Below the pieces are notes generated by a model that was given only the letters and a program-made list of their open reading frames with translations, did not search any database and was not told the origin of the DNA. The position numbers and the translations under genes are program-made. Shown here piece after piece: positions 761 to 12,096 of a stretch of DNA of 34,512 nt. The stretch comes from Lachnospiraceae bacterium (lineage in GTDB: Bacteria; Bacillota; Clostridia; Lachnospirales; Lachnospiraceae), in the NCBI GenBank assembly GCA_022799355.1, contig JAAWOG010000040.1, positions 1 to 34,512 on the forward strand, in the 5' to 3' direction. Positions within the stretch are counted from its first letter, which is position 1. Each line of letters begins with the position of its first letter.

Positions 761-1222
761 ATGGATATTGAAGAACAATACGATAAAATATATCGCTACT
801 GTTATTTCAAGCTGTACGATAAGCAGTTAGCACAGGATATTACGCAGGAAACCTTTCTTCGATTTTACAGACAGGGTTTAAGACTTGACAGAAATAAAGT
901 GTTGCCTTATTTATATACGATTGCAAAAAATTTGTGTGTAGACAGCTTTCGCAAAAAAAATGTTGAAAGTTTAGAAGATGTAACAGAAGAAATAACATAC
1001 GATCCAACCGAGGATTGGATAAGTAACATAGCTTTAAGAGGGGTTATATCAAAGCTGCCGCAAGATGAACAGGAATTGATTTTTTTGCGATATGTAAATG
1101 AAATCGGGATTGCTGCAATTTGCAGGATTACGGGATTTTCCCGTTTTGCTGTTTCCCGCAGACTTACAAAAGCTTTGAAAGGGCTGAAAGACGAATTGAA
1201 AAAGGAGGGATTTTCTGTATGA
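761..1222 (+). CDS. ECF-like sigma-70 family RNA polymerase sigma factor
   Basis: This 153-residue protein has the two-domain layout of small sigma-70 factors. Region 2 is at about residues 5-60 (QYDKIYRYCYFKLYD, then AQDITQETFLRFYR, a core-binding DxxQExF-type motif). Region 4 is at about 95-148 (LPQDEQELIFLRY, then a helix-turn-helix ending SRFAVSRRLTKALKGLK). It would direct RNA polymerase to a small promoter set. The start is ATG 761, preceded by GAAGGGAGG (741-749); the ATG at 754 is out of frame and stops at once. The stop overlaps the next start as ATGA, so the genes are translationally coupled. With the downstream membrane protein and ABC genes it forms one operon, which it may autoregulate (inference). 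No canonical anti-sigma domain is recognisable. Confidence 0.85.
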   Translation: MDIEEQYDKIYRYCYFKLYDKQLAQDITQETFLRFYRQGLRLDRNKVLPYLYTIAKNLCVDSFRKKNVESLEDVTEEITYDPTEDWISNIALRGVISKLPQDEQELIFLRYVNEIGIAAICRITGFSRFAVSRRLTKALKGLKDELKKEGFSV

Positions 1223-1938
1223 ATAAGCAGATGAAACGGAGTATTCAAAAAGCATTTGAAGCCCCGCAGCCAAACCAACAGGAAAAGGCAAGGTTTCTGG
1301 AAACATTGCCCCAACCTCAAACCAGTATGTGGAAATTCATTTTGATACAGGCAACTTATCTGCGAAAGTGGACATTGCTTTTCTCGGTATTGCTCCTGTT
1401 CCCTGCATTGATAGGTGCTTATCACATTGAGAAAAATACGTTGTGGCTTGTATCTGCCTTTGTCCCCTTTCTTGGATTGTTAGCCGTAACAGAAAATGCC
1501 CGTTCCATGGTGTATGGAATGAATGAATTTGAAATGTCTGCACGGTTTTCACTACGAAGCGTAATCCTTGCCAGAATGGGAGTTTTAGGCTTACTTGATC
1601 TTCTCATTTTTTGTTGCCTTATTCCCCTGTGCCATATTGGCAATCATTTTTCTTTGTTTCAAACAGGGATTTATCTTCTTGTGCCATATCTGCTGACAAT
1701 AACTATCGGCTTGTGGATTACACGCTGTTTTCACAGCAGGGAAGCAATTTACGGTTGTATGAGCGTAGCGGTTTTGATTAGCGGAGCAGATATGGAAATA
1801 CATCTCATAGTTGATTTTGTATATCAATCTTCCTGCATCACATGGTGGTTTGTGCTGTTTGTTCTTTTAGTTGGAAGAATAATATACGAAACATATTGTA
1901 CAATTACGCAAACGGAGGAATTAGCATGGAACTTATAA
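1219..1938 (+). CDS. Polytopic membrane protein between sigma factor and ABC ATPase
   Basis: The 239-residue product has a soluble N-terminus of about 40 residues (KRSIQKAFEAPQPNQQEKARFL) followed by roughly six hydrophobic segments. The start is ATG 1219, preceded by AAAGGAGGG (1201-1209); it overlaps the sigma-factor stop by four bases. The 3' end overlaps the ABC ATPase gene by 13 bases. I do not recognise a named domain. Two roles are plausible: a membrane anchor that holds the sigma factor (anti-sigma-like, with its short cytosolic N-terminus), or an accessory subunit of the ABC exporter. The position, with overlaps on both sides, says only that it is made together with them. Confidence 0.72.
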   Translation: MNKQMKRSIQKAFEAPQPNQQEKARFLETLPQPQTSMWKFILIQATYLRKWTLLFSVLLLFPALIGAYHIEKNTLWLVSAFVPFLGLLAVTENARSMVYGMNEFEMSARFSLRSVILARMGVLGLLDLLIFCCLIPLCHIGNHFSLFQTGIYLLVPYLLTITIGLWITRCFHSREAIYGCMSVAVLISGADMEIHLIVDFVYQSSCITWWFVLFVLLVGRIIYETYCTITQTEELAWNL

Positions 1939-2633
1939 TTGACCGGGTATCAAAACAATATAAAAACAAGATTGCTGTTGACTGTATTTCCGTAAAACTG
2001 CAAAAAGGTGTTTATGGGCTGCTTGGCGCAAATGGAGCAGGAAAAACAACGCTTATGAGAATGATATGCGGCATATTAAAGCCTACAAGCGGTACAATTT
2101 CTTTTGATGGTATTGATGTGAGCGAAGAAAGCTACCGTTCTGTTTTAGGTTATCTTCCGCAGGATTTTGGCTACTATCCCGAATTTACAGGAATGGATTT
2201 TCTGTTGTATATGGCGGCTTTGAAAGGCATGGGGAAGGCACAGGCAAGGCGGAAATCGGAAGAACTTTTGGGGCTGGTATCTTTGCAGGATGTTGCCAAA
2301 AAGAAAATCAAAACCTATTCCGGCGGCATGAAACAGCGGTTAGGAATTGCGCAGGCATTACTCAATCAACCAAAACTTCTTGTTTTAGACGAACCGACCG
2401 CCGGACTTGATCCGAAGGAAAGGGTGAGGTTTCGCAATCTGATTGCGGACTTGGGAAAGGAAAATATTGTGCTGCTGTCAACACATATCGTATCTGATAT
2501 TGAACAGGTCGCAGAGAGAGTTTTGATGATGAAAGACGGACGGCTAATTTATCAGGATAAATGGGACGATAGCAACGGCAGTTTGGAGGACTTCTATTTA
2601 CAGCACATTGACGAGGAGGGGGAACATGAATAA
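1926..2633 (+). CDS. ABC transporter ATP-binding protein
   Basis: This 235-residue nucleotide-binding subunit has all expected motifs: Walker A GANGAGKTT (34-42), Q-loop LPQD (Gln79), signature SGGMKQ (132-137), Walker B LLVLDEPT (151-158) and the switch histidine in STH (187). It resembles ATPases of ABC-2 exporters of the antimicrobial-peptide resistance or lantibiotic-immunity type. The start is ATG 1926, behind CGGAGGAA; longer upstream reading would run inside the preceding gene. It overlaps the permease gene by eight bases. It would energise export or displacement of a hydrophobic substrate at the membrane. The substrate cannot be read from the sequence. Confidence 0.92.
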   Translation: MELIIDRVSKQYKNKIAVDCISVKLQKGVYGLLGANGAGKTTLMRMICGILKPTSGTISFDGIDVSEESYRSVLGYLPQDFGYYPEFTGMDFLLYMAALKGMGKAQARRKSEELLGLVSLQDVAKKKIKTYSGGMKQRLGIAQALLNQPKLLVLDEPTAGLDPKERVRFRNLIADLGKENIVLLSTHIVSDIEQVAERVLMMKDGRLIYQDKWDDSNGSLEDFYLQHIDEEGEHE

Positions 2634-3840
2634 CTTTAGGGTTTTATACCAATACGAATGTAAAAAATTGTTTGGCAGAAAAATAGTTTGGATTACTTTT
2701 GCGCTGTGCATAGTGACGATTATCATTTCTCTTTGCGTTCCTTTTATTGGCTCTTACTATGCAGGGGGCGAATTGATAGATACAAATCTCAATATGTATC
2801 AGACGGACAAGCGTTATTCCGAGGCTTTAAGTAACAGGGAAATCAATCAGGAACTCCTGGAAGAAACAATAACAGCATATAGAAAAATCCCATATACAAA
2901 GGAACTGCAATATTCATTAACAGAGGAATATCAGCAATATGCACGTCCATATAGTGCTGTTTTCAATTTCATAGTTGGAACAACAGATATGCAGGCTTCA
3001 GATGTTATCCTATCTTGGCAGGCAAACGAAGATGATTTATATACCAAAAGGCAGATGTGGCTAAATTCCTTATGGGAAGATTTGGGACTATCCAAAGGAG
3101 AAATAGATTTTTGGCAGGAGCGAGAAACACAAGTTAAAACGCCGTTTGTGTATCAACACCACGAAGCATATAACATCTTGATTTCGTGCTACCAAACTGT
3201 TGGTTTGTTTGTGTTGTTGTTAATTGCTATCTGCCTTTCGGGGGTATTTTCGGAAGAACATACAAGAAAAACAGATCAGATTATCTTATGCAGCCCATTA
3301 GGAAGGACCTGGCTTTACTGGGTTAAAATTACGGCGGGTATCAGTTTTGCCGTGATCAGTGCAATCCTGCTGTCACTTTTCACATTTATAATGACGATTT
3401 GCTTACATGGAGCAGACGGTTTTCATGCGGCGTTTCAGTTGGTATATATAAGAAATTCAGCCCCTATCACCTGCGGGCAAGCGATACTAATAGCGTTTGG
3501 CAGCATGATATTTGCAGCGATTGTTATCAGCATATTTGTTATGGTTTTGTCCGAACTGCTGCGTAGTAATATTGCTGCATTGGCAGTTTCAACAGGGTTT
3601 TTAATTATGGCTATGATTGTCGCAGTGCCGAAGCAGTATCGGTTATTGGCGCAAGTCTGGGATTGGCTCCCCTGGTGTTTCCTTGCCCCCTGGAATGTGT
3701 TTGGGATGTACACCCTTTCCATATTCGGGCATTACTTCACTTCCTGGCAGGCAGTACCGATTATCTATCTTGTTGCAGGCATACTGATAGCTGCCGTTGG
3801 ACGACCGATGTATCGGCGGTTTCAGGTGTCGGGAAGATAG
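2626..3840 (+). CDS. ABC-2 type transporter permease
   Basis: The 404-residue product starts with a cytosolic helix and a first membrane span (IVWITFALCIVTIIISL). A large extracytoplasmic loop of about 130 residues follows, then about five more spans, the layout of ABC-2 permeases. The start ATG 2626 has GAGGAGGGGG just upstream and overlaps the ATPase stop. It is the last gene of the sigma/membrane/ATPase/permease operon. The large external loop is shared with permeases that sense or handle peptide antibiotics (family knowledge), but the substrate is not known. There is no clear terminator after the stop; the next gene begins 92 bases on. Confidence 0.87.
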   Translation: MNNFRVLYQYECKKLFGRKIVWITFALCIVTIIISLCVPFIGSYYAGGELIDTNLNMYQTDKRYSEALSNREINQELLEETITAYRKIPYTKELQYSLTEEYQQYARPYSAVFNFIVGTTDMQASDVILSWQANEDDLYTKRQMWLNSLWEDLGLSKGEIDFWQERETQVKTPFVYQHHEAYNILISCYQTVGLFVLLLIAICLSGVFSEEHTRKTDQIILCSPLGRTWLYWVKITAGISFAVISAILLSLFTFIMTICLHGADGFHAAFQLVYIRNSAPITCGQAILIAFGSMIFAAIVISIFVMVLSELLRSNIAALAVSTGFLIMAMIVAVPKQYRLLAQVWDWLPWCFLAPWNVFGMYTLSIFGHYFTSWQAVPIIYLVAGILIAAVGRPMYRRFQVSGR

Positions 3841-3932: not shown

Positions 3933-4847
3933 GTGGGAAAAAGGACAACGGAGGTGCATCCGGGGGATATTTTTATGATTCCTCTTTTTTTGCCATCCAA
4001 TGATGATGATTATACACTTGATTACAGTAAGTATAAGTTTCCCGTAAATGATACTTATGCTTTCGGAAGATTGATTGAAATACAGGTGGGAAATGTAGAT
4101 TTGATAGAGGTGTTTTCTTACACCGGACAGATACCCGAAAATCCTGATATTATAATACAATCGGGAAGAATGTTTGCACCTGTACATATAGGACATCCAT
4201 TTTCTAAAAATGAGCGTTGGCGAGCTATCTTCAATAATCCACATTATGATATGTGGAGAGATTCGGATTATGAAAATATTTCGTTTCTGTCTTCTGCAGG
4301 ACATATGTGGAAAGGAAAAGAAACAATCAGGATTACCCAAAAACAATGTATCGAATTGGAAGAAGCCGGAATACCTTACTGGATTATGCATTCCCGTACG
4401 GATCATGAAGTTAAGATTCGTTCGGTGCTTGAAGAACGGGGAGTGGATCTGAAGTATGAGCAGATAGTTGATGAGCGGAAATCGGAATTTCCAAAACCAA
4501 GAGATGTGGATAAAAAGCTAAAGGAAATGATTGCTCCGTTTAGCTGGTTATCAGAACCGGGAAAATATACATTAAGCCTGGATGCCGGTTTGTTAAATAG
4601 CGATTGCTTTGCAGAGAATAACATGTTAGGAAACGGATATGATTGGGAAAAAGTTGCATCCGAATTTATGAAAAAGCAGGGAATACATGCTGAGAAAAAA
4701 TTCAGTTTTGATTGTGAAGCGGATACATTTTCCATGACTTCCTCCTCTAAAAAAATGTTGAAGGAATTTTCAATTTCTTTCCACAAATTTGTTATGGATA
4801 CAAATGCCTTTGAAGAATTTTTGAAGCAGCTTTCGTTCTGCGGATAG
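3933..4847 (+). CDS. Two-domain immunity-like protein (Imm26-like N-terminus, Imm51-like C-terminus)
   Basis: The 304-residue soluble protein has no signal peptide. Residues 9-50 (HPGDIFMIPL, then YAFGRLIE) match the pattern I know from Imm26-type immunity proteins. The last 95 or so residues (GNGYDWEKVASEFM, then KKFSFDCEADTFSMTSSSKK) match the Imm51 pattern, in which an acidic strand is followed by a helical tail. Both are immunity domains of polymorphic toxin systems, which neutralise a cognate toxin in the cytoplasm. I chose GTG 3933 because GGGAGG (3920-3925) sits seven bases upstream; TTG codons at 3906 and 3927 are alternatives. No toxin gene is visible nearby, so it is an orphan here. 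Family assignment is by pattern only. Confidence 0.68.
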   Translation: MGKRTTEVHPGDIFMIPLFLPSNDDDYTLDYSKYKFPVNDTYAFGRLIEIQVGNVDLIEVFSYTGQIPENPDIIIQSGRMFAPVHIGHPFSKNERWRAIFNNPHYDMWRDSDYENISFLSSAGHMWKGKETIRITQKQCIELEEAGIPYWIMHSRTDHEVKIRSVLEERGVDLKYEQIVDERKSEFPKPRDVDKKLKEMIAPFSWLSEPGKYTLSLDAGLLNSDCFAENNMLGNGYDWEKVASEFMKKQGIHAEKKFSFDCEADTFSMTSSSKKMLKEFSISFHKFVMDTNAFEEFLKQLSFCG

Positions 4848-4917
4848 TCTAAAAAGAATCGGAATCAGTTATTGATTATGGAAGCGGTGAGATTATTATA
4901 AACAGCACATAACCTGC

Positions 4918-4946
4918 TTGACTTTTAAATCTTACTGTTGTAATAT
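4918..4946 (+). promoter_or_regulatory. Promoter of the envelope-protein operon
   Basis: TTGACT (4918-4923) and TAATAT (4941-4946) are separated by 17 bases, a good sigma-A-type promoter. Transcription would start near 4953. The spacer and -10 box lie inside the left operator arm, so a bound repressor would block polymerase. Confidence 0.6.
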
Positions 4947-4980
4947 TTTAAAAAAGTAAATATTACAATAGTAAGATTTA
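4926..4980. promoter_or_regulatory. Predicted BlaI operator (24-bp inverted repeat)
   Basis: Left arm 4926-4949 and right arm 4957-4980 are inverted copies matching at 22 of 24 positions. Each holds a TTAC-N4-GTAA core (4932-4943 and 4963-4974). The reverse complement of the right arm begins TAAATCTTACTATTGTAATA. That matches TAAATCTTACAATTGTAGTA in front of blaI (11,472-11,491) at 18 of 20 positions. BlaI/MecI repressors bind such TTAC/GTAA dyads as dimers (family knowledge). The shared sequence is seen; regulation by this BlaI is inferred. Confidence 0.65.
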
Positions 4981-5032
4981 CTTTGCATTTTATGCATGGC
5001 AGAAGATGCAAAAAGGAGAGGAAGAAGCGGTT

Positions 5033-6331
5033 ATGTTGTTGGAAAAGAATAAAAAAGTTCCCTTATTTGTAATGATACTGTTGATACTGTTGATATTGGC
5101 GGGGTGCGGCAATAGGACACCGGAGATATCGGATACCGGGGTAACTCGGCAGGACAGTGAAGTATATTCTTTCGATAAAAAGGAAACTGCCGATACGGAG
5201 CGCATAGCTGAGATTCTCAATGATATTTATGAGGAAGCAGTAAATACACCTTCCGGGCATTCATCTATGGCATATGGCGATCAAGAGGAGACAAATATAT
5301 TGGGAAGTCCGGATATTCTGCGGCGCATGGTTGCCGGACTCGGTGAAAACGGTTATGTGGCCGTTGACGGTGGAAATCAGATTGACATGACACAGGCAGA
5401 ACAGGCACTGGCATTTTGCAGGTCAGTAGATGAAAAAGAGAGGGACGAATTGACGATTATAGTAGTTATGGAGATGGGGATTCGTCAATTTGATTTGAAA
5501 ACAGAGGACGGTAATGTAACTATTGTCAGAGGATATTATCAATATGACCAAAATGGCAGTTTGCAGAACAGAAGTACGGTAAGCTATCCGGCGGATTTCT
5601 GGCAGTATACGGAGGAAGGATATTTAATCTTCGGGGGAAGCTACGTTTCGGATGAAAGTTATATACTGACATTAAGCGACACACCGGAACATACGATGCT
5701 TCGGATTTTGCCTTTGGATGAAAAGTGCAGGGAATATAACCGAAAGTATATCCTGCCGGTTGGCTATGAACAAAACAACCTGTTTCTCTGCAATTGGAGC
5801 GAGGACGATTTTGGAGATTTGGACTTTTATGATTTATTTGACAGGTTCTATCCAGTGATGTACAGCCAGCCGGCACCTTACATGGCGGATGAGAATTTAG
5901 GAGTCGGCGCTGTTTACCAAATACCGGAAGAACTATTTGAAAATGTGATCGGGGCATATTTCAATATGGATTATGAAACGCTCCGTTCCAAAACAACATA
6001 TATTCCGGAACTTGCCGCCTATGAGTACAGACCACGCGGTTTTCACGAGGCGGAATACCCGGATATTGCGTATCCGGAAGTAGTGAATTATAGGGAGAAC
6101 GAGGACGGGACAGTTACGCTTCATGTCAATGCGGTATATCCGGGGGGAAATATGTCTAAGGAGTTTTCACACACAACCGTAATCCGCCCATTCAGTGAGG
6201 GCAGTTTTCAGTATGTATCGAACGAGATCATCTTACCCGAAGGAGAGCATGATATTTGGTGGCATTCCAATCGGCTGACGGAGGAAGAAAGGGAAACTCT
6301 TTTCCCGAAAGAGGTTTATGGAGGGGCTTGA
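5033..6331 (+). CDS. Large lipoprotein, first of a paralogous envelope pair
   Basis: The 432-residue protein begins with a short basic stretch, a hydrophobic core and the lipobox LILAGC, so it should be a lipid-anchored protein outside the membrane. The start ATG 5033 follows AAAGGAGAGG (5012-5021); an in-frame ATG at 5006 would place that ribosome binding site inside the gene. The mature part aligns along most of its length with the next gene product: shared blocks include PL(D/S)E.CRE, KYI, NW, ENEDGT.TL.V and RPF..G.F.Y.SN.I. I recall this layout from a Lachnospiraceae family filed as DUF6070, but cannot confirm it. No enzyme motif is visible. It is first in the operon under the predicted BlaI operator. 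Confidence 0.82.
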   Translation: MLLEKNKKVPLFVMILLILLILAGCGNRTPEISDTGVTRQDSEVYSFDKKETADTERIAEILNDIYEEAVNTPSGHSSMAYGDQEETNILGSPDILRRMVAGLGENGYVAVDGGNQIDMTQAEQALAFCRSVDEKERDELTIIVVMEMGIRQFDLKTEDGNVTIVRGYYQYDQNGSLQNRSTVSYPADFWQYTEEGYLIFGGSYVSDESYILTLSDTPEHTMLRILPLDEKCREYNRKYILPVGYEQNNLFLCNWSEDDFGDLDFYDLFDRFYPVMYSQPAPYMADENLGVGAVYQIPEELFENVIGAYFNMDYETLRSKTTYIPELAAYEYRPRGFHEAEYPDIAYPEVVNYRENEDGTVTLHVNAVYPGGNMSKEFSHTTVIRPFSEGSFQYVSNEIILPEGEHDIWWHSNRLTEEERETLFPKEVYGGA

Positions 6332-6334
6332 ATC

Positions 6335-8224
6335 GTGAAAGACGTAAAATGGCTTTTAAAAAGGTATGGTTCTTTTATTGTGTTAACGGCAGTCATTATT
6401 GTAACAGGTAGCATTGCTTTAGGGAAAAGAGATACGGAAAGGAACACGGAGGAAGTGCGGGAATCTCCGGTCGTAATCGAAAATACGGAAGCGGTAAAAG
6501 AAGATGAATCAGTAGAATGTTTTGAGGAAAAGTCTCCGAATCCTGCCGAAGCGCTAACAGGGGAGAAGCCGGAACCTGTCAGTATCCTGACGGCGGAAGA
6601 AGAACAGGATTTGCAGGACGAGGCAATCTCAGCGGCCAGGCAGTGCATGGATCTTTATAAAGAGATTGAAATTGTATATCCTGAAATGGCGTATTCCTAC
6701 ATAAAGAGTTTTTCTGAAAAACAGAGAGAAGATGTGGTAAAGCGGTTGGGCGAACAGGGATTTGTAAGTGTTTCTGATGATATAAACATGGAAAATTATC
6801 AGAACATGGAGGAGTTTTATGCTGCTTATATTTCCGGCAGGGATGCGATGATTACAGTGTTTGATGTACACAGGGAGGGGAATATCAGTGCGCGGACATT
6901 TATTCATAGAAACGGGAAAATACAGTCCTTTTATGTGACGGCAGGCTGGCGGGAAGGCGGCATACCGGAAGTAAAAGGTTTTGGGAGCAATGATCTGGAG
7001 GAGATAAGGCTGACGGAGAAAGGGTATTTTATTTATACAAATACGGAGGCGGCAGCACATGGAAACCTGCGGGAATATTACAGGGTAAAGCCATTATCGG
7101 ATGAATGCAGGGAGCTGACAAAAAAGTACATATATGGACTTAGCTACGTGAATTATAATATGCTTGTAACAAACTGGGACGCCGGCAATGTGGAGGAAAT
7201 CTTAATGCCCCGTATGTTTGAGGATATATACCGGGTATACACAAATGAGCCTTTCAGGGCAGAGGGCGGGCTGATTCCTGCGGAGATTTATGAGCGTGTT
7301 ATGACCACCTGTTTTCCGGTATCCGTAGAACAGGTGAGGGAATATTGCGGTTATCATGCGGATGCGGGCGGTTATGAATATGAAATGATATGTGCAAGAC
7401 AGTTTCCGCCTTTTGGGGAAGTGATAGATTACAAATATAATGAGGATGGGACGATCACACTTTATGTGGACGGAGTCTGGATCGATTACAATTCGGATTA
7501 TGCTTTCACAAATCAGATTGTAGTCCGGCCATTCCCGGATGGGACATTCCGGTATCTGTCTAATACGATTGAACAAAAGGAACTGGAAGTGCCGCAGATA
7601 GGAAAAGAGAGGGAAAGTCAGTATATCGTACCGGAATGGGAAGATGCCTATAAGGAGATTGTCCGTAATATGGAAAGTTATTTAGCAGATCCATATGTTC
7701 TCCGAAAGGAACTTAAACAGGTAAACAGTGATTCTTGTATCGGCTATATCGGGATACACGATTTTGATGATGACGGTGTGCCTGAATTGATCATAGGGGA
7801 TGGTATATCAATAGGGATATTTACCTATGACAACGGTAGGGTAAAAAAGATTGCGGATTTGTATGAACCGGAGGATTGGGGCGGTATTAACGGAGTGCAT
7901 TACAGGGAAAACACGATTATCCTTGTAAATAGCGGTTCGGATGGGAGCTGTTATGTCTGTCTTTCATACCACGATGGAGAATATATAACAGGGATTTACG
8001 ATGAATATAATCCGCAGACGGCGATTGTCAATGGAAAAGAGATTACGGAAGAAGAATTTCAAAAGCAGTTCGATATAGTTGGATTGTCAGGGGATAGTTC
8101 CATTCCCCGCAGCAGGATGAAAAAAGAGGATGGAATCGTCACAGCTCTTGTAATGGATGCAATCCGGCAAGAAGATGAATATACCCTGATTGAAGATTTG
8201 GATTTTGGCACAATAAAGTGGTGA
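6335..8224 (+). CDS. Exported paralog with added FG-GAP-like C-terminal domain
   Basis: The 629-residue product has an N-terminal hydrophobic segment (SFIVLTAVIIVTGSIALG) without a lipobox cysteine, so it is membrane-anchored or secreted. An acidic linker follows to about residue 90. Residues 95-420 are homologous to the preceding lipoprotein. The last 200 residues add a different domain containing HDFDDDGVPELIIGDG, a D-x-D-x-D-G loop of the FG-GAP/VCBS or calcium-binding type. The start is GTG 6335, eight bases after GGAGGGG (6320-6326) and three after the previous stop, so the two genes are co-translated. The duplication plus domain gain suggests specialisation on a shared envelope ligand, which remains unknown. 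Confidence 0.8.
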   Translation: MKDVKWLLKRYGSFIVLTAVIIVTGSIALGKRDTERNTEEVRESPVVIENTEAVKEDESVECFEEKSPNPAEALTGEKPEPVSILTAEEEQDLQDEAISAARQCMDLYKEIEIVYPEMAYSYIKSFSEKQREDVVKRLGEQGFVSVSDDINMENYQNMEEFYAAYISGRDAMITVFDVHREGNISARTFIHRNGKIQSFYVTAGWREGGIPEVKGFGSNDLEEIRLTEKGYFIYTNTEAAAHGNLREYYRVKPLSDECRELTKKYIYGLSYVNYNMLVTNWDAGNVEEILMPRMFEDIYRVYTNEPFRAEGGLIPAEIYERVMTTCFPVSVEQVREYCGYHADAGGYEYEMICARQFPPFGEVIDYKYNEDGTITLYVDGVWIDYNSDYAFTNQIVVRPFPDGTFRYLSNTIEQKELEVPQIGKERESQYIVPEWEDAYKEIVRNMESYLADPYVLRKELKQVNSDSCIGYIGIHDFDDDGVPELIIGDGISIGIFTYDNGRVKKIADLYEPEDWGGINGVHYRENTIILVNSGSDGSCYVCLSYHDGEYITGIYDEYNPQTAIVNGKEITEEEFQKQFDIVGLSGDSSIPRSRMKKEDGIVTALVMDAIRQEDEYTLIEDLDFGTIKW

Positions 8225-8242
8225 TGCATCGGGTGTACATAA

Positions 8243-8368
8243 GGGCAAAGGCATGAACTGACAGTGCGGTTTTCAGAAGATGGCGGCTTTCGGTATTTGG
8301 GAAACAAAATTCCGGATGATGGGATTTCAAATATACCGGAATATCAATACGGGATTGTCAGAGAGTGA
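8243..8368 (+). pseudogene. 3' remnant of a third paralog of the envelope-protein family
   Basis: An open segment after an in-frame stop at 8240-8242 reads GQRHELTVRFSEDGGFRYLG, then NKIPDDG, ending at TGA 8366-8368. It matches the C-terminal blocks of the two preceding proteins: TVIRPFSEGSFQYVSNEI in the first and IVVRPFPDGTFRYLSNTI in the second. There is no start, and the upstream part is missing or frame-shifted. The cluster therefore once held at least three family members, and this copy is decayed. Confidence 0.55.
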
Positions 8369-8412
8369 TTATGGATATCGCTTAACGTTGAAAGAAGAAG
8401 GGATATGGGGCA

Positions 8413-9093
8413 ATGAAAACAATAATAAAATTTGTATTAGGCTTTGTGGCTGCCATTTTTATTATAATCTTTGATGGGAGAAAAGAGGCAAAACAGTTAA
8501 CGGATAGGGAAGAACGTGCAGAAGTGGGGGATGAGGATGAAATTCAAGAAATAAATCCGCAGACAATTTATGCAGGTGAATCAGAAAGTCAGGAAGATAT
8601 GGAACCGGATGAGAATGATGCAGATTCGGAGGATGATAGTGGTTCAATAGAATATATAAATAAGTATATGATACCGGAGCAATCGTTTGATGTTACGTTA
8701 GATGACTGGGGAGAAGTTACCTTTGTATCCTGTAAGCCGACTTATGATGTCGAGCATGAGTATGCTTCATTTTTCCTGCTTAGGGATGAACAGATATTAT
8801 ATAGATTTCCTTATCGTTATGAAGATAATACCATGGGGCATGAGGGTTCTTTTGCCAGAGTTGGCGCAGTTGCTTTTCGGGATATCAATGATGATGGGAA
8901 AAGCGACATAATTGTCATAGTATATTATTATTCCGGAGCAGGTCCGACCGGTATGGTTCCCCGTCCGGATATCAGAATATTTATAGCTGAGGAAAATGAA
9001 TTTTATCTTGCAGAAGATATGGCAGCAGATATTGAACAGCATATATTGGAAAAAGACATGACTATCGAAACTATTGAATTATGGGCGAGATAA
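8413..9093 (+). CDS. Membrane-anchored acidic protein with FG-GAP-like domain
   Basis: The 226-residue product has one N-terminal hydrophobic segment (FVLGFVAAIFIIIF), then a strongly acidic linker of about 45 residues. It ends in a globular domain with AFRDINDDGKSDIIVIVYYY, a D-x-N-D-D-G-x-S-D loop of the FG-GAP/VCBS type. The start ATG 8413 has an AGAAGGG about 12 bases upstream, a moderate match. It follows the paralog remnant and ends just before a terminator hairpin, so it is probably the last gene of the envelope operon. Its fold class resembles the added domain of the 6335-8224 product, which suggests a common theme. No enzymatic motif is seen. Confidence 0.75.
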   Translation: MKTIIKFVLGFVAAIFIIIFDGRKEAKQLTDREERAEVGDEDEIQEINPQTIYAGESESQEDMEPDENDADSEDDSGSIEYINKYMIPEQSFDVTLDDWGEVTFVSCKPTYDVEHEYASFFLLRDEQILYRFPYRYEDNTMGHEGSFARVGAVAFRDINDDGKSDIIVIVYYYSGAGPTGMVPRPDIRIFIAEENEFYLAEDMAADIEQHILEKDMTIETIELWAR

Positions 9094-9149
9094 TGCTCCT
9101 TTTTAAGTAACTGCATTTTACATGGGCTGCTTAAATGAGAGCATTTTTG
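9092..9149. terminator. Bidirectional terminator between convergent operons
   Basis: AATGCTC (9092-9098) pairs with GAGCATT (9139-9145), and TTTAAG/CTTAAA extends the stem inside. TTTTT follows on the plus strand (9144-9148). It lies between the plus-strand envelope operon and minus-strand blaR1, so it probably ends the envelope transcript. Use on the minus strand is less clear. Confidence 0.55.
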
Positions 9150-9180
9150 TGTGCCGGAGAGCATCCATTTTCCTCGTTAT

Positions 9181-11010
9181 TTACCATATACCCATATAGG
9201 ACAGGACGGAGAGAGAGATTTCCGATGCTTTACTGCCTGTGGCATTTTCTGCGGCTTGGATGTTGGCGGCAAAAAAGTATGTGTTTCCGGCAGTTTCAAG
9301 GAAACCCACAAACCAGCCATTTACGTCTTGACCATTTACACGTCCGGTTCCGGTTTTTCCGTAAAAGTTTTTGCCTTCCGATGAAAAATTTTCTGATGAA
9401 GAAAGGCAGATGGAATTTTTAACGGCATTTATATTTTCCGGGGCAAAATCAAATTGATTATTGTGCAGGGCGGTTAAAAGTTCCACCTGTTCTACCGGAG
9501 AGATTTTTAGCGTCCCCTGCATCCAGTAGGAGGAAAGATTTGTATTTACAATCTCATTCCCATATCCGATTTTTCGGATATAATCCTGAATGGCAGACGA
9601 GCCGATCCGCTTATCTATCTCCTCGAAATACCAGTTGACGGAGGACTGCATGGCAGAAGATAAATCCTGATTTCCGTTCCATTCTTCAAATGGGTAGTCT
9701 GTTTTGTCCCATGCCATGAAAGAATTATCCGGCGCAATCACGCCTTCTTCCAGTCCAAACAGCGCATCATAGATTTTGTAAGTAGAATTTGGGGCTGTCC
9801 GCAAAGTGGCTTGCTCCATGTCATAGACCTTCCATGTATCGCCGTTTAAATCATATAGTACAAAGCTGCCCTCATATCCACTGAACCAGGCAGACAGGTC
9901 AATCGTGGAAACCTTGTCAGAGGGAATATTCCACTGATACCGGCTCTGCCCGGCGGCATAGGTGGAGAGCATTGGGGCAAGCCCGGAAAGTATAATGCTG
10001 ATTGTGACAAAAGCAGTAAGTCCTTTTAATTTTCTGAGGACAGAAGGCTTTTTATAAGAGGAGATATTAACAATTCTTTGCTGCATCTGCTTCATGCTTT
10101 TGCTGATGCCGACAGCATTGCCTTCGGAAACAAAAGCAAGGGGGAAAGGCGTAAGTGAAACTTTCTCCGCAAAATTGATAAGGGTATTTCCGTAATCTTC
10201 ATAATCGCTTTCATCGAGCAGGTTCAGGACGGATGTATCACAGGCAACCTCCCGCTCATTCCGCATTTCTTTCAGTGCATACCGGACACAGGGGTTACAC
10301 CAGTAGAGTATGCCGAAAAAACTCATAAAGAAACCGGCCAGTGCGTCTTTGTGTTTGTAATGTTGTAATTCGTGCAACAGCATATACCGCATATCCGCAG
10401 CATTAAAATCCGATATGAGGTGGATGGGAAGATAAATGCGGGGATTGAATAATCCTGCGATAACGGGGGATTTCAGGAAGGCGGTGCTGTAAATGGGAAT
10501 CTTTCTTTTTATGTTCATTTCCCTTAAACAGTTATGATATAAAATGCGGACGGTCTCATTCTGCAGGGGAAGCGCGGACTTTTTTATGGCGTTTATCCGG
10601 GATACGGATTTTATTACCAGTAAAATCATAGCCGGAATGCCAACCAGCCATATCCCACACAAAATCAGTCCGATAATGGAGGGGGTTTTCCTGCTGACGG
10701 AAAGTGCAAAATCATTCATCTGATGTACGGCGCCGGACGTATTTGGATTCAGGATGCCTTCCGCAATCGCCTCCCTGCTTGAGGGCGCCGCATTTTTCCA
10801 TGCGTCGAGCAATGCGAGAACCTGCGTAAAAGAAGCCAAACGAAAGGGAACAAAGGGGACTGCGAGAATCCCAAGCAGCAAAAACCATAGATTGAACTGC
10901 ATCCGGCTGGTTAAACAATTTTTAAATGCCCGCTTTACGAGAATAAGAAAACCTATGATGATACAAATGAAAATATTACACAGGAAAAAGCGTATTCCAA
11001 ATTCTGCCAT
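9181..11010 (-). CDS. blaR1: BlaR1/MecR1-type membrane sensor-transducer metalloprotease
   Basis: The 609-residue protein has an N-terminal membrane region with several spans and a cytosolic M56 protease motif HELQH (213-217) followed by NEREVACD. A last span near 332-352 leads to an extracellular class D penicillin-binding domain. That domain keeps all active-site motifs: STYK (Ser409, Lys412), SVN (457-459) and KTG (552-554). In the known pathway a beta-lactam acylates the serine and the protease then relieves BlaI repression. The start ATG 11,010 follows AGGCAGGGG. It lies 56 bases downstream of blaI in one operon. No beta-lactamase is in the window, so the sensor probably serves other targets, most plausibly the convergent envelope operon. 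Confidence 0.93.
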   Translation of the reverse strand: MAEFGIRFFLCNIFICIIIGFLILVKRAFKNCLTSRMQFNLWFLLLGILAVPFVPFRLASFTQVLALLDAWKNAAPSSREAIAEGILNPNTSGAVHQMNDFALSVSRKTPSIIGLILCGIWLVGIPAMILLVIKSVSRINAIKKSALPLQNETVRILYHNCLREMNIKRKIPIYSTAFLKSPVIAGLFNPRIYLPIHLISDFNAADMRYMLLHELQHYKHKDALAGFFMSFFGILYWCNPCVRYALKEMRNEREVACDTSVLNLLDESDYEDYGNTLINFAEKVSLTPFPLAFVSEGNAVGISKSMKQMQQRIVNISSYKKPSVLRKLKGLTAFVTISIILSGLAPMLSTYAAGQSRYQWNIPSDKVSTIDLSAWFSGYEGSFVLYDLNGDTWKVYDMEQATLRTAPNSTYKIYDALFGLEEGVIAPDNSFMAWDKTDYPFEEWNGNQDLSSAMQSSVNWYFEEIDKRIGSSAIQDYIRKIGYGNEIVNTNLSSYWMQGTLKISPVEQVELLTALHNNQFDFAPENINAVKNSICLSSSENFSSEGKNFYGKTGTGRVNGQDVNGWFVGFLETAGNTYFFAANIQAAENATGSKASEISLSVLSYMGIW

Positions 11011-11066
11011 AGTAATACCCCTGCCTTTCTATAAACCTGCAAATTTGCAACACAGGAACAAATTTT

Positions 11067-11456
11067 TCAATTTCCCCCTTTGTCTTTTGAACCTTTTGCG
11101 AGAAGGGAACGGAGCGTGGAAATTTCTGATTCGGAGAGTCTGTCATCTTCGATATAGGCAGAAAGCATTGCCGTAATATTTCCGTCATAATACCGTTCAA
11201 GAAAAGAATGGCTTTCCTGACCGATATATTCTTTTTCTTCTATCAAAGGCGTGTAAACGAAAACCCTGCTCTGTTTTTCATAGGAAAGAGCCCCTTTGGT
11301 TACAAGCCGCTTGATTAAGGTCTGTATTGTCTTGGGACTCCATTTTGTAGTCCGTGTTAATTTTTCGGTGATTTCATTGGTATTGATCGGTGCGTGTTTC
11401 CATATGACTTTCATCACTTCAAATTCGGCTTCGGAAATTTGCGGCAATGGTTTCAT
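11067..11456 (-). CDS. blaI: BlaI/MecI-family transcriptional repressor
   Basis: The 129-residue protein is typical in length for the family. The N-terminal winged helix (ISEAEFEVMKVIWKHAP, NTNEITEKL, WSPKTIQTLIKRLVTKGAL) is followed by a helical dimerisation tail. It binds TTAC/GTAA dyads as a dimer and is inactivated by proteolysis triggered by BlaR1 (family knowledge). The start ATG 11,456 has GGAGGGG eight bases upstream. Its own promoter overlaps the operator at 11,472-11,503, which indicates autoregulation. The same operator sequence occurs in front of the lipoprotein operon 6.5 kb away. Confidence 0.93.
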   Translation of the reverse strand: MKPLPQISEAEFEVMKVIWKHAPINTNEITEKLTRTTKWSPKTIQTLIKRLVTKGALSYEKQSRVFVYTPLIEEKEYIGQESHSFLERYYDGNITAMLSAYIEDDRLSESEISTLRSLLAKGSKDKGGN

Positions 11457-11471
11457 CTGTAATCCCCTCCT

Positions 11472-11523
11472 TAAATCTTACAATTGTAGTATACATTGTA
11501 ATGTGAAAATAGGAAAATGTCAA
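11472..11523 (-). promoter_or_regulatory. blaI-blaR1 promoter with overlapping BlaI operator
   Basis: On the minus strand TTGACA (plus-strand 11,518-11,523) and TACAAT (11,495-11,500) are 17 bases apart, a near-consensus promoter. Two dyads cover the -10 box and start region: TTACAATTGTA (11,478-11,488) and TACATTGTA (11,492-11,500). This is the standard autoregulatory layout of bla operons. The site also lies upstream of the divergent gene at 11,617, which it could influence. Confidence 0.75.
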
Positions 11524-11616: not shown

Positions 11617-12096
11617 ATGTTCGATGAAAGCTTATACGATACACCCGGATTTTGCCGTCATGGCTTAAGTATAGATTTGGTCAATAAAAAACAGATTTTG
11701 TTTGTCCCCGTACTGCAAATTAAATGTATTTCAGAGGCAGCCGCTATTTACGATTATCCAATGGACGCGGAGGAAATCGGGAGAATTGTGTTCCGTTTTT
11801 TTGAGCAAATGAAGCAGCGGAATTTAACGCTCCATACGCCCTGTAAAAAATACTGGCTTATGCCCAGGGGGATTCGGAGCTTCAAAAAATATGTAGAAGC
11901 TACTTTTTCTGTTGAACTTAGTTGGGATGGGGATGTTTTTAGTGTCTGTCGCTGGCTTCCGGCGCCTGACCGCGGTTTTGAACCGGAACCCTCCGGTGAG
12001 GATCTCACCATAAGCAACTCCGTTTCGGCAAAGGAACTGGGGGAGTTTATTCAGCTGCAATTCGATTACATTGAGAAGAAGCGTCAGGGTTTGTAA
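11617..12096 (+). CDS. Unrecognised small protein divergent from blaI
   Basis: The 159-residue product has no signal peptide or membrane span. It begins MFDESLYDTPGFCRHGLS, is mixed alpha/beta in look, and ends with an amphipathic helix (SAKELGEFIQLQFDYIEKK). I do not recognise it. I chose ATG 11,617 because GGAGGA (11,604-11,609) sits seven bases upstream; ATG 11,611 is too close, and in-frame ATG 11,563 lacks a ribosome binding site. A hairpin, TGCCCGT/ACGGGCA (11,525-11,548), lies in the leader. It shares its upstream region with blaI and the operator dyads, so it may belong to the same regulon. A strong hairpin terminator follows at 12,129. Confidence 0.6.
   Translation: MFDESLYDTPGFCRHGLSIDLVNKKQILFVPVLQIKCISEAAAIYDYPMDAEEIGRIVFRFFEQMKQRNLTLHTPCKKYWLMPRGIRSFKKYVEATFSVELSWDGDVFSVCRWLPAPDRGFEPEPSGEDLTISNSVSAKELGEFIQLQFDYIEKKRQGL

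Follow-up and report, generated by a model that had tools for sequence, protein, structure and literature searches.

What does a penicillin-sensing switch control when no beta-lactamase gene lies under its operator? The question is raised by a 34,512-nucleotide contig of a Lachnospiraceae bacterium (JAAWOG010000040.1 of assembly GCA_022799355.1; this whole stretch is called the window), in which the regulator genes blaR1 and blaI face an operon for exported proteins of the Pfam family DUF6070. The regulation and origin of this operon are strongly supported by comparison with related loci: it appears to be a target of BlaI and to descend from a mec-like operon whose first gene, encoding a MecA-type penicillin-binding protein (PBP), has been deleted in the window. 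Taken as a whole, our proposal is a mec-like, BlaR1/BlaI-controlled, beta-lactam-inducible envelope operon that was reduced to its lipoprotein part and kept a wall-protecting function, which we consider probable rather than assured.

The switch and its operators

The regulators, the promoters, and the operators of the window are located as follows.

9181..11010, minus strand: blaR1, M56 metallopeptidase with a class-D-like penicillin sensor (NF000326, 634 bits against a cut-off of 400; aligns along the BlaR1 structure 8exs)
11067..11456, minus strand: blaI repressor (PF03965, 120 bits; closest structures 1p6r and MecI 1sd6/1okr)
11475..11492, no strand assigned: BlaI-type operator of blaI-blaR1 (20.6 bits)
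11495..11523, minus strand: blaI-blaR1 promoter, TTGACA-17-TACAAT (promoter scan)
4918..4946, plus strand: sigma-70-type promoter of the lipoprotein operon, TTGACT-17-TAATAT (promoter scan)
4929..4946, no strand assigned: BlaI-type operator 1, across the spacer and the -10 box (18.4 bits)
4960..4977, no strand assigned: BlaI-type operator 2, in the orientation opposite to that of operator 1 and just 3' of the expected transcription start (17.9 bits)

An earlier sequence-only reading of the window had described blaR1 and blaI as complete and convergent with the lipoprotein operon, and this holds. The BlaR1 translation contains HELQH, STYK, SVN, and KTG, its M56 and transpeptidase domains were matched, and the profile scores exceed their cut-offs. 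Among the structures closest to BlaI is 1p6r, a penicillinase repressor domain. The locus has the parts of bla/mec signaling: an M56 protein with a penicillin-binding sensor and its active-site motifs, a Penicillinase_R repressor encoded together with it, and putative BlaI-type operators on both promoters, that of the regulators and that of the target. Pairwise dN/dS against close relatives is 0.13-0.26 for blaR1 and 0.06-0.20 for blaI. Divergent from blaI lies a gene for a 159-aa hypothetical protein (11617-12096) with no Pfam match.

Operators were scored with a matrix trained on the regions upstream of 33 blaI genes, that of the window among them; the resulting palindrome is ATATTACATATGTAATAT. 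Exactly three sites in the window reach 12 bits, namely those listed above, and none was found at 15 bits in 60 first-order Markov copies of the window. The earlier reading placed the TTGACT/TAATAT promoter in a 24-bp inverted repeat. Repeat and promoter are there, and the length has to be corrected: the arms (4926-4948 and 4958-4980) measure 23 nt, are complementary at 22/23 positions (96%), and are separated by a 9-nt gap. Each arm is an imperfect 18-bp BlaI-type palindrome on its own; the repeat is most plausibly a pair of oppositely oriented BlaI-type operators at one promoter. A count by eye gives 17 and 18 identities in 20 bases between the arms and the blaI operator, in agreement with the earlier reading. 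Neighboring operators are 31 bp apart in the window; for operon promoters in the named relatives introduced below, the spacing is 26-27 bp in 14/37 pairs and 46-67 bp in 18/37. Promoter-like matches as a class are not enriched (23 in the window vs 20.9 in shuffles).

The first operator also resembles a site from binding assays. Part of PMC3305447 gives OP1 as the oligonucleotide used for BlaI binding in Bacillus licheniformis; positions 4921-4950 agree with it at 23/30 bases and the second operator at 21/30, while the best matches in 20 shuffles reached 18-20. The four best rows of this comparison, all with at least 19 matches, did not include the blaI operator.

Because the repressor family PF03965 is matched 13 times in the genome of the window (contig C45 of a 97.9% complete draft of 3.79 Mb), the specificity of the operator matters. 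The 17-base pattern TCTTACNNTTGTARTAT has three perfect matches in this genome, and these are the three window operators. Its sole match with one mismatch lies inside an ORF of 211 aa on contig C20, rhomboid-like by our reading. Up to two mismatches, 17 matches were counted for the pattern and also 17 for a reversed control; hence only the perfect matches are informative.

We searched 397 genomes of the same family (Lachnospiraceae) and a 391-genome sample of the class. DUF6070 occurs in 72/397 genomes of the family; in the class-wide sample, the window's own genome was the sole match, so the family looks restricted. With a threshold of E 1e-60 or better, BlaR1 is present in 71/397 genomes and the MecA-type PBP in 77/397 (matches of 44-100% identity). 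BlaR1 was found in 49 of the 72 DUF6070 genomes vs 22 of the 325 others (odds ratio 29; Fisher p 6e-28, with relatedness of the genomes uncorrected in this and the later Fisher test), and the PBP in 43/72 vs 34/325 (odds ratio 12.7). PBP and BlaR1 likewise occur together (BlaR1 in 51/77 genomes with the PBP vs 20/320 without it). At 34/81 loci, DUF6070 lies within 12 kb of BlaR1, draft contigs notwithstanding.

Two sets of loci were examined for operators of at least 15 bits. The first comprises 80 stretches from the 397 genomes (L056-L135) plus the window, 75 of them with a recognized DUF6070 ORF; the second comprises 80 of 218 named relatives of the operon, mostly gut Lachnospiraceae (L182-L261), with the 5' end of the operon in view in 75. 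Because some genomes contribute to both, the two sets are not independent. The simple ORF caller used misses some genes, such as the window's own blaI, so gene counts are lower bounds. The earlier reading had proposed to look in relatives for the same operator before the lipoprotein family and for linkage to blaR1-blaI. In the first set, an operator precedes 21 of the 24 PBPs of PBP-bearing operons and 14 of the 17 DUF6070-first operons with blaR1 or blaI in the stretch; the three misses (L068, L069, L076) are at or near contig ends. It precedes 11/34 DUF6070-first operons without these regulators in the stretch and 22/758 other genes. All 22 control sites are in stretches holding blaI or blaR1, and we take them to be mostly neighbors that share an intergenic region. 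In the named set, the operator was found at 25/26 operons with blaR1/blaI, at 10/36 without them on long flanks, and at 7/13 on truncated stretches. It precedes DUF6070 operons in many genera.

For the 34 DUF6070 operons that are unlinked and lack the PBP, we asked whether BlaR1 is encoded elsewhere in the genome. This is so for 10/11 operons with an operator vs 6/23 without one (Fisher p 6e-4), or 10/11 vs 5/20 when counted by genome. From the uniqueness of the site in its genome, the operator counts across loci, and this trans test, we argue that the operator belongs to the BlaI of this locus. The same results support the suggestion that a cell-wall-antibiotic signal would induce exported paralogues through BlaR1 and BlaI, with BlaI binding and induction as predicted steps.

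The operon and its lost first gene

Downstream of the two operators, all on the plus strand, the operon contains the following.

4982..5032, plus strand: 3' remnant of a MecA-type PBP gene
5033..6331, plus strand: DUF6070 lipoprotein, paralogue a (DUF6070a), with a lipobox LAGC seen by eye (PF19546, 394 bits)
6335..8224, plus strand: DUF6070 paralogue b, N-terminally anchored and extended at its C-terminus by a fused part of about 200 aa (PF19546, 226 bits)
8249..8350, plus strand: remnant of a third DUF6070 gene (PF19546 positions 310-344, E 1e-6)
8413..9093, plus strand: final gene of the operon, for a small N-terminally anchored protein with an FG-GAP-like repeat (PF01839, 20.7 bits, slightly below the cut-off of 22.1)

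The matches of paralogues a and b cover positions 2-345 and 2-336 of PF19546, respectively, far above the cut-off of 27 bits; the two are 24% identical. DUF6070a most likely starts at ATG 5033 and not at 5006. The fused C-terminal part of paralogue b, which was aligned with the named relative L183, is an ORF of its own in L183, L186, L187, and others, and the last gene has a homologue in L183. Apparently fused DUF6070 paralogues also occur as single ORFs of about 740-830 aa (L194, L207, L210, L215, L217, L261, and others), reaching 1195 aa in L257. Two DUF6070-like places were found in the phage record MT836875.1 ('Bacteriophage sp.', 8.4 kb, unannotated, from human feces); the record could be a contig of bacterial origin or a mobile carrier.

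A Pfam scan of the operon genes (DUF6070, DUF6070, and FG-GAP-like) revealed no beta-lactamase under the operator, as the earlier reading had it. Elsewhere, the genome encodes a 526-aa anchored protein similar to class D beta-lactamases (STFK, KTG; 169 bits, below the curated cut-off of 250; L263 1459-3039, contig C16) and has three partial PF13354 matches above cut-off (51, 43, and 26 bits), which we read as probable D,D-carboxypeptidases; beta-lactamases of classes B and C lay outside the search.

In the relatives that have the PBP gene, it usually comes first, followed by one to three DUF6070 genes and then small genes, with blaR1 and blaI facing them. A PBP-like gene is present in 24 of the 75 DUF6070 stretches of the first set (window included). 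It encodes 700-763 aa, except for one copy cut at a contig end, and is upstream of DUF6070 in 23 cases and downstream in L093. Pfam scans of three of these PBPs identified the domains MecA_N, PBP_dimer, and Transpeptidase; the others were assigned through BLAST to one of the three. The solved structures nearest to a fourth PBP are PBP3, PBP4, PBP5, and PBP2a. Relatives thus have the target of a mec-type operon, and the window has its 3' remnant only.

Alignment with L183 shows how the window apparently came to differ. The promoter and first operator (4871-4955) are 86% identical to L183 7716-7800, and positions 4982-5059 are 86% identical to L183 9864-9939, which lies inside an intact-length PBP ORF (7849-9996). 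This second match begins 50 bp upstream of the DUF6070a start. The 3' end of the PBP gene overlaps the DUF6070a start in relatives and contains an apparent ribosome-binding site; the remnant in the window carries the stretch AGGAGAGG (5014-5021, by eye). The alignment thus points to a deletion in place that spared the 3' end with the ribosome-binding stretch and the start of DUF6070a. In the window's own genome, no MecA_N match was found, and the best match to the PBP is distant (31% over 347 aa).

Remnants of the PBP gene were sought by comparing each operon with the best of six references, and 20 operons were repeated on two common references. Homology starting at least 25 bp upstream of the DUF6070a start on the common references was counted as a remnant, which gave 11 operons (the window, L182, L185, L188, L191, L193, L194, L212, L215, L218, and L221); L184 and L197 were added because of internal PBP pieces. 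Remnants are thereby present in 13 of the 35 PBP-less operons with an operator (the window and 34 named loci). L199 (E 0.003), L192, L196, L200, L207, L210, and L258 were left out because their signal was weak or ambiguous. Measured upstream from the start of DUF6070a, the right-hand junctions are at 50, 124, 61, 64, 31, 25, 49, 41, and 194 bp, at least eight being different; one is common to L182 and L188 and another to L215 and L218. In the named set, the PBP is of intact length in 12/80 loci and fragmented in L186 and L190. The differing junctions could have arisen through several losses, or through one loss whose remains were eroded later. We favor separate losses because, in DUF6070a, the loci L183 and L187 with a PBP of intact length resemble the window more closely than several loci without the PBP do, a ranking by similarity and not a phylogeny.

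The lipoproteins seem to have remained under constraint. For the dN/dS values of DUF6070a, pairs with dS outside 0.1-1.2 were excluded, and L186, L190, and L195 were left out. The median dN/dS of DUF6070a is 0.181 among PBP-less loci (56/78 pairs kept), 0.148 among PBP-bearing loci (11/21 kept), and 0.169 between the window and its PBP-less relatives (10/12 kept). These pairwise values include branches before the loss; with that reservation, DUF6070a stays under apparent purifying selection in PBP-less loci, too.

These data bear on the possibility that the locus is a decaying remnant, in which the lipoproteins lost their function along with the PBP, the locus is disappearing, and its conservation only reflects a recent loss. 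The PBP, most of the third DUF6070 gene, and an intergenic stretch are indeed gone from the window, and two relatives have the fragmented PBPs mentioned above. However, DUF6070a, blaR1, and blaI are open, with dN/dS of about 0.2 or lower against most close relatives, and loci with different PBP junctions retain DUF6070 and the operators and, where the flank is long enough, mostly the regulators. We regard decay as unlikely.

Directly 5' of the operon promoter, the window encodes a protein with Imm26- and Imm51-like immunity domains (3936-4847); no toxin gene was recognized beside it among the genes scanned. Further upstream (761-3840), in a row, are genes for an ECF-type sigma factor, a further ORF, the ATPase of an ABC transporter, and a membrane protein of ABC-2-like type, the last with scores slightly below the Pfam cut-offs.

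A proposed role for the lipoproteins

In the proposed circuit, a beta-lactam would acylate the class-D-like sensor of BlaR1, as the protein families suggest. The M56 domain would then be activated and BlaI inactivated. BlaI would leave both operators at the 4918-4946 promoter as well as the blaI operator, as the arrangement of the sites suggests, and both units would be transcribed. As its genes show, the operon encodes two DUF6070 proteins, one a lipoprotein and the other anchored, together with a small FG-GAP-like protein that is anchored, too. By analogy with the lipoprotein PrsA, for which a portion of PMC6858329 describes a role as partner of PBP2a, the DUF6070 lipoproteins may originally have assisted the low-affinity-type PBP as its partners. 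Once this PBP was gone, resident PBPs or wall enzymes would be their targets, and this would account for the retention of the lipoproteins and the inducible promoter. As a tentative extension, which we think possible at best, the DUF6070 lipoproteins would be a further output of BlaR1/BlaI that gives gut Lachnospiraceae tolerance to beta-lactam wall damage on its own; lineages could then repeatedly drop the co-transcribed PBP and keep the lipoproteins.

The same circuit could also serve another signal, with BlaR1 and BlaI reporting wall damage or wall fragments and the lipoproteins as a general envelope-stress output. A peptidoglycan dipeptide dissociates BlaI/MecI from its operator in vitro, as stated in part of PMC3305447, and the operon has no beta-lactamase and no MecA-type PBP left that would make antibiotic sensing pay. 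The BlaR1 sensor nevertheless retains STYK, SVN, and KTG, and blaR1 is under purifying selection. We give this explanation about as little credence as decay.

IseA of Bacillus is an inhibitor of wall hydrolases, and DUF6070 proteins, if they were of this kind, could limit lysis under beta-lactam stress. In a Foldseek search, the top row for the C-terminal domain of DUF6070 is the CwlO-IseA complex (8wt4_A), a weak match (E 0.11, prob 0.75), and we consider such a role very improbable. An NTF2/cystatin-like fold, in which a helix packs against a curved antiparallel sheet, is a tentative candidate for the same domain. That the dyad serves another BlaI/CopY-type regulator of the cell, of which the 13 PF03965 matches would offer candidates, is scarcely credible, because the site is common to the blaI promoter itself, has no other perfect copy in the genome, resembles a BlaI operator from binding assays, and tracks BlaR1 across genomes.

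Several observations weigh against our proposal of a reduced, still protective, BlaI-controlled operon. For the role of the lipoproteins, the DUF6070 models have no significant match in the PDB (the AlphaFold2 model of DUF6070a has pLDDT 82.6 and pTM 0.78), and the profile of the C-terminal domain is unrelated to MecA_N. The loss of most of the third DUF6070 gene and the fusion of two others look like decay, and dN/dS of DUF6070a is slightly higher in PBP-less than in PBP-bearing loci, on branches that may partly precede the loss. For the origin, 22 of the 35 PBP-less operons have no clear PBP remnant (7 weak or inconclusive, 15 with promoter homology only). For the regulation, 23 of the 34 unlinked DUF6070 operons lack the operator, six of these in BlaR1 genomes, and a second DUF6070 locus of the window's own genome (L127 9038-10438, contig C104) has a best operator score of -7.5. 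Hence, DUF6070 is not always a target of BlaI.

Comparison with known bla and mec systems

The earlier reading regarded this locus as its best candidate for an undescribed system; the system is a variant of the known bla/mec regulon, with exported proteins as its targets instead of a beta-lactamase. New here is the link of DUF6070 to BlaR1/BlaI and to a MecA-type PBP. Both exported paralogues belong to PF19546 at the curated cut-off; Pfam assigns no function to it, and none of the papers in the literature searched names DUF6070. A family without a described function thereby gains a regulatory and genetic context, and a mec-like operon with a penicillin-sensor switch is placed in many gut commensals. 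The loci amount to a natural experiment in which the PBP goes while the lipoproteins and the penicillin sensor stay.

BlaR1/BlaI genes of commensals are easily taken for beta-lactam resistance; here the regulators face an operon without a beta-lactamase or a MecA-type PBP. For Blautia producta DSM 2950, whose locus is outside this analysis, a section of PMC8146736 lists blaI and blaR1 yet reports no resistance to beta-lactams such as ampicillin.

In other stretches from the family, the load of the switch differs, as judged from BLAST similarity only. BlaR1/BlaI faces class-D-sensor-like ORFs taken as beta-lactamases (e.g., L145, L147, L155) or MecA-type PBPs alone (L159, L160, L162, L164, L166), or lies beside PBP-like proteins of 911-981 aa (L148, L154, L158, L165, L167), which may be class A PBPs by their length. 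All of these 13 stretches contain one or more sites that reach 15 bits; no such site was found in two other BlaR1/BlaI stretches (L146, L149).

With blaI-blaR1-blaP/blaZ of B. licheniformis and Staphylococcus aureus, the locus shares the repressor, the sensor, and, by similarity to OP1, the operator sequence; the window operon differs in having no beta-lactamase, its targets being a lipoprotein and anchored proteins. The BlaI regulons of Clostridium thermocellum, as outlined in part of PMC8457756, are likewise small, with paired operators and hypothetical target genes, whereas the operator motif by the description there and the targets are different. With mecI-mecR1-mecA of Staphylococcus, which encodes PBP2a, the locus has in common a BlaI/MecI-type repressor and a BlaR1/MecR1-type sensor and, in relatives, a PBP with MecA_N, PBP_dimer, and Transpeptidase domains after the same kind of operator. 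Unlike there, the two units are convergent instead of divergent, the PBP gene shares an operon with DUF6070 genes, and in the window it is deleted. The system is a bla/mec switch with a different load.

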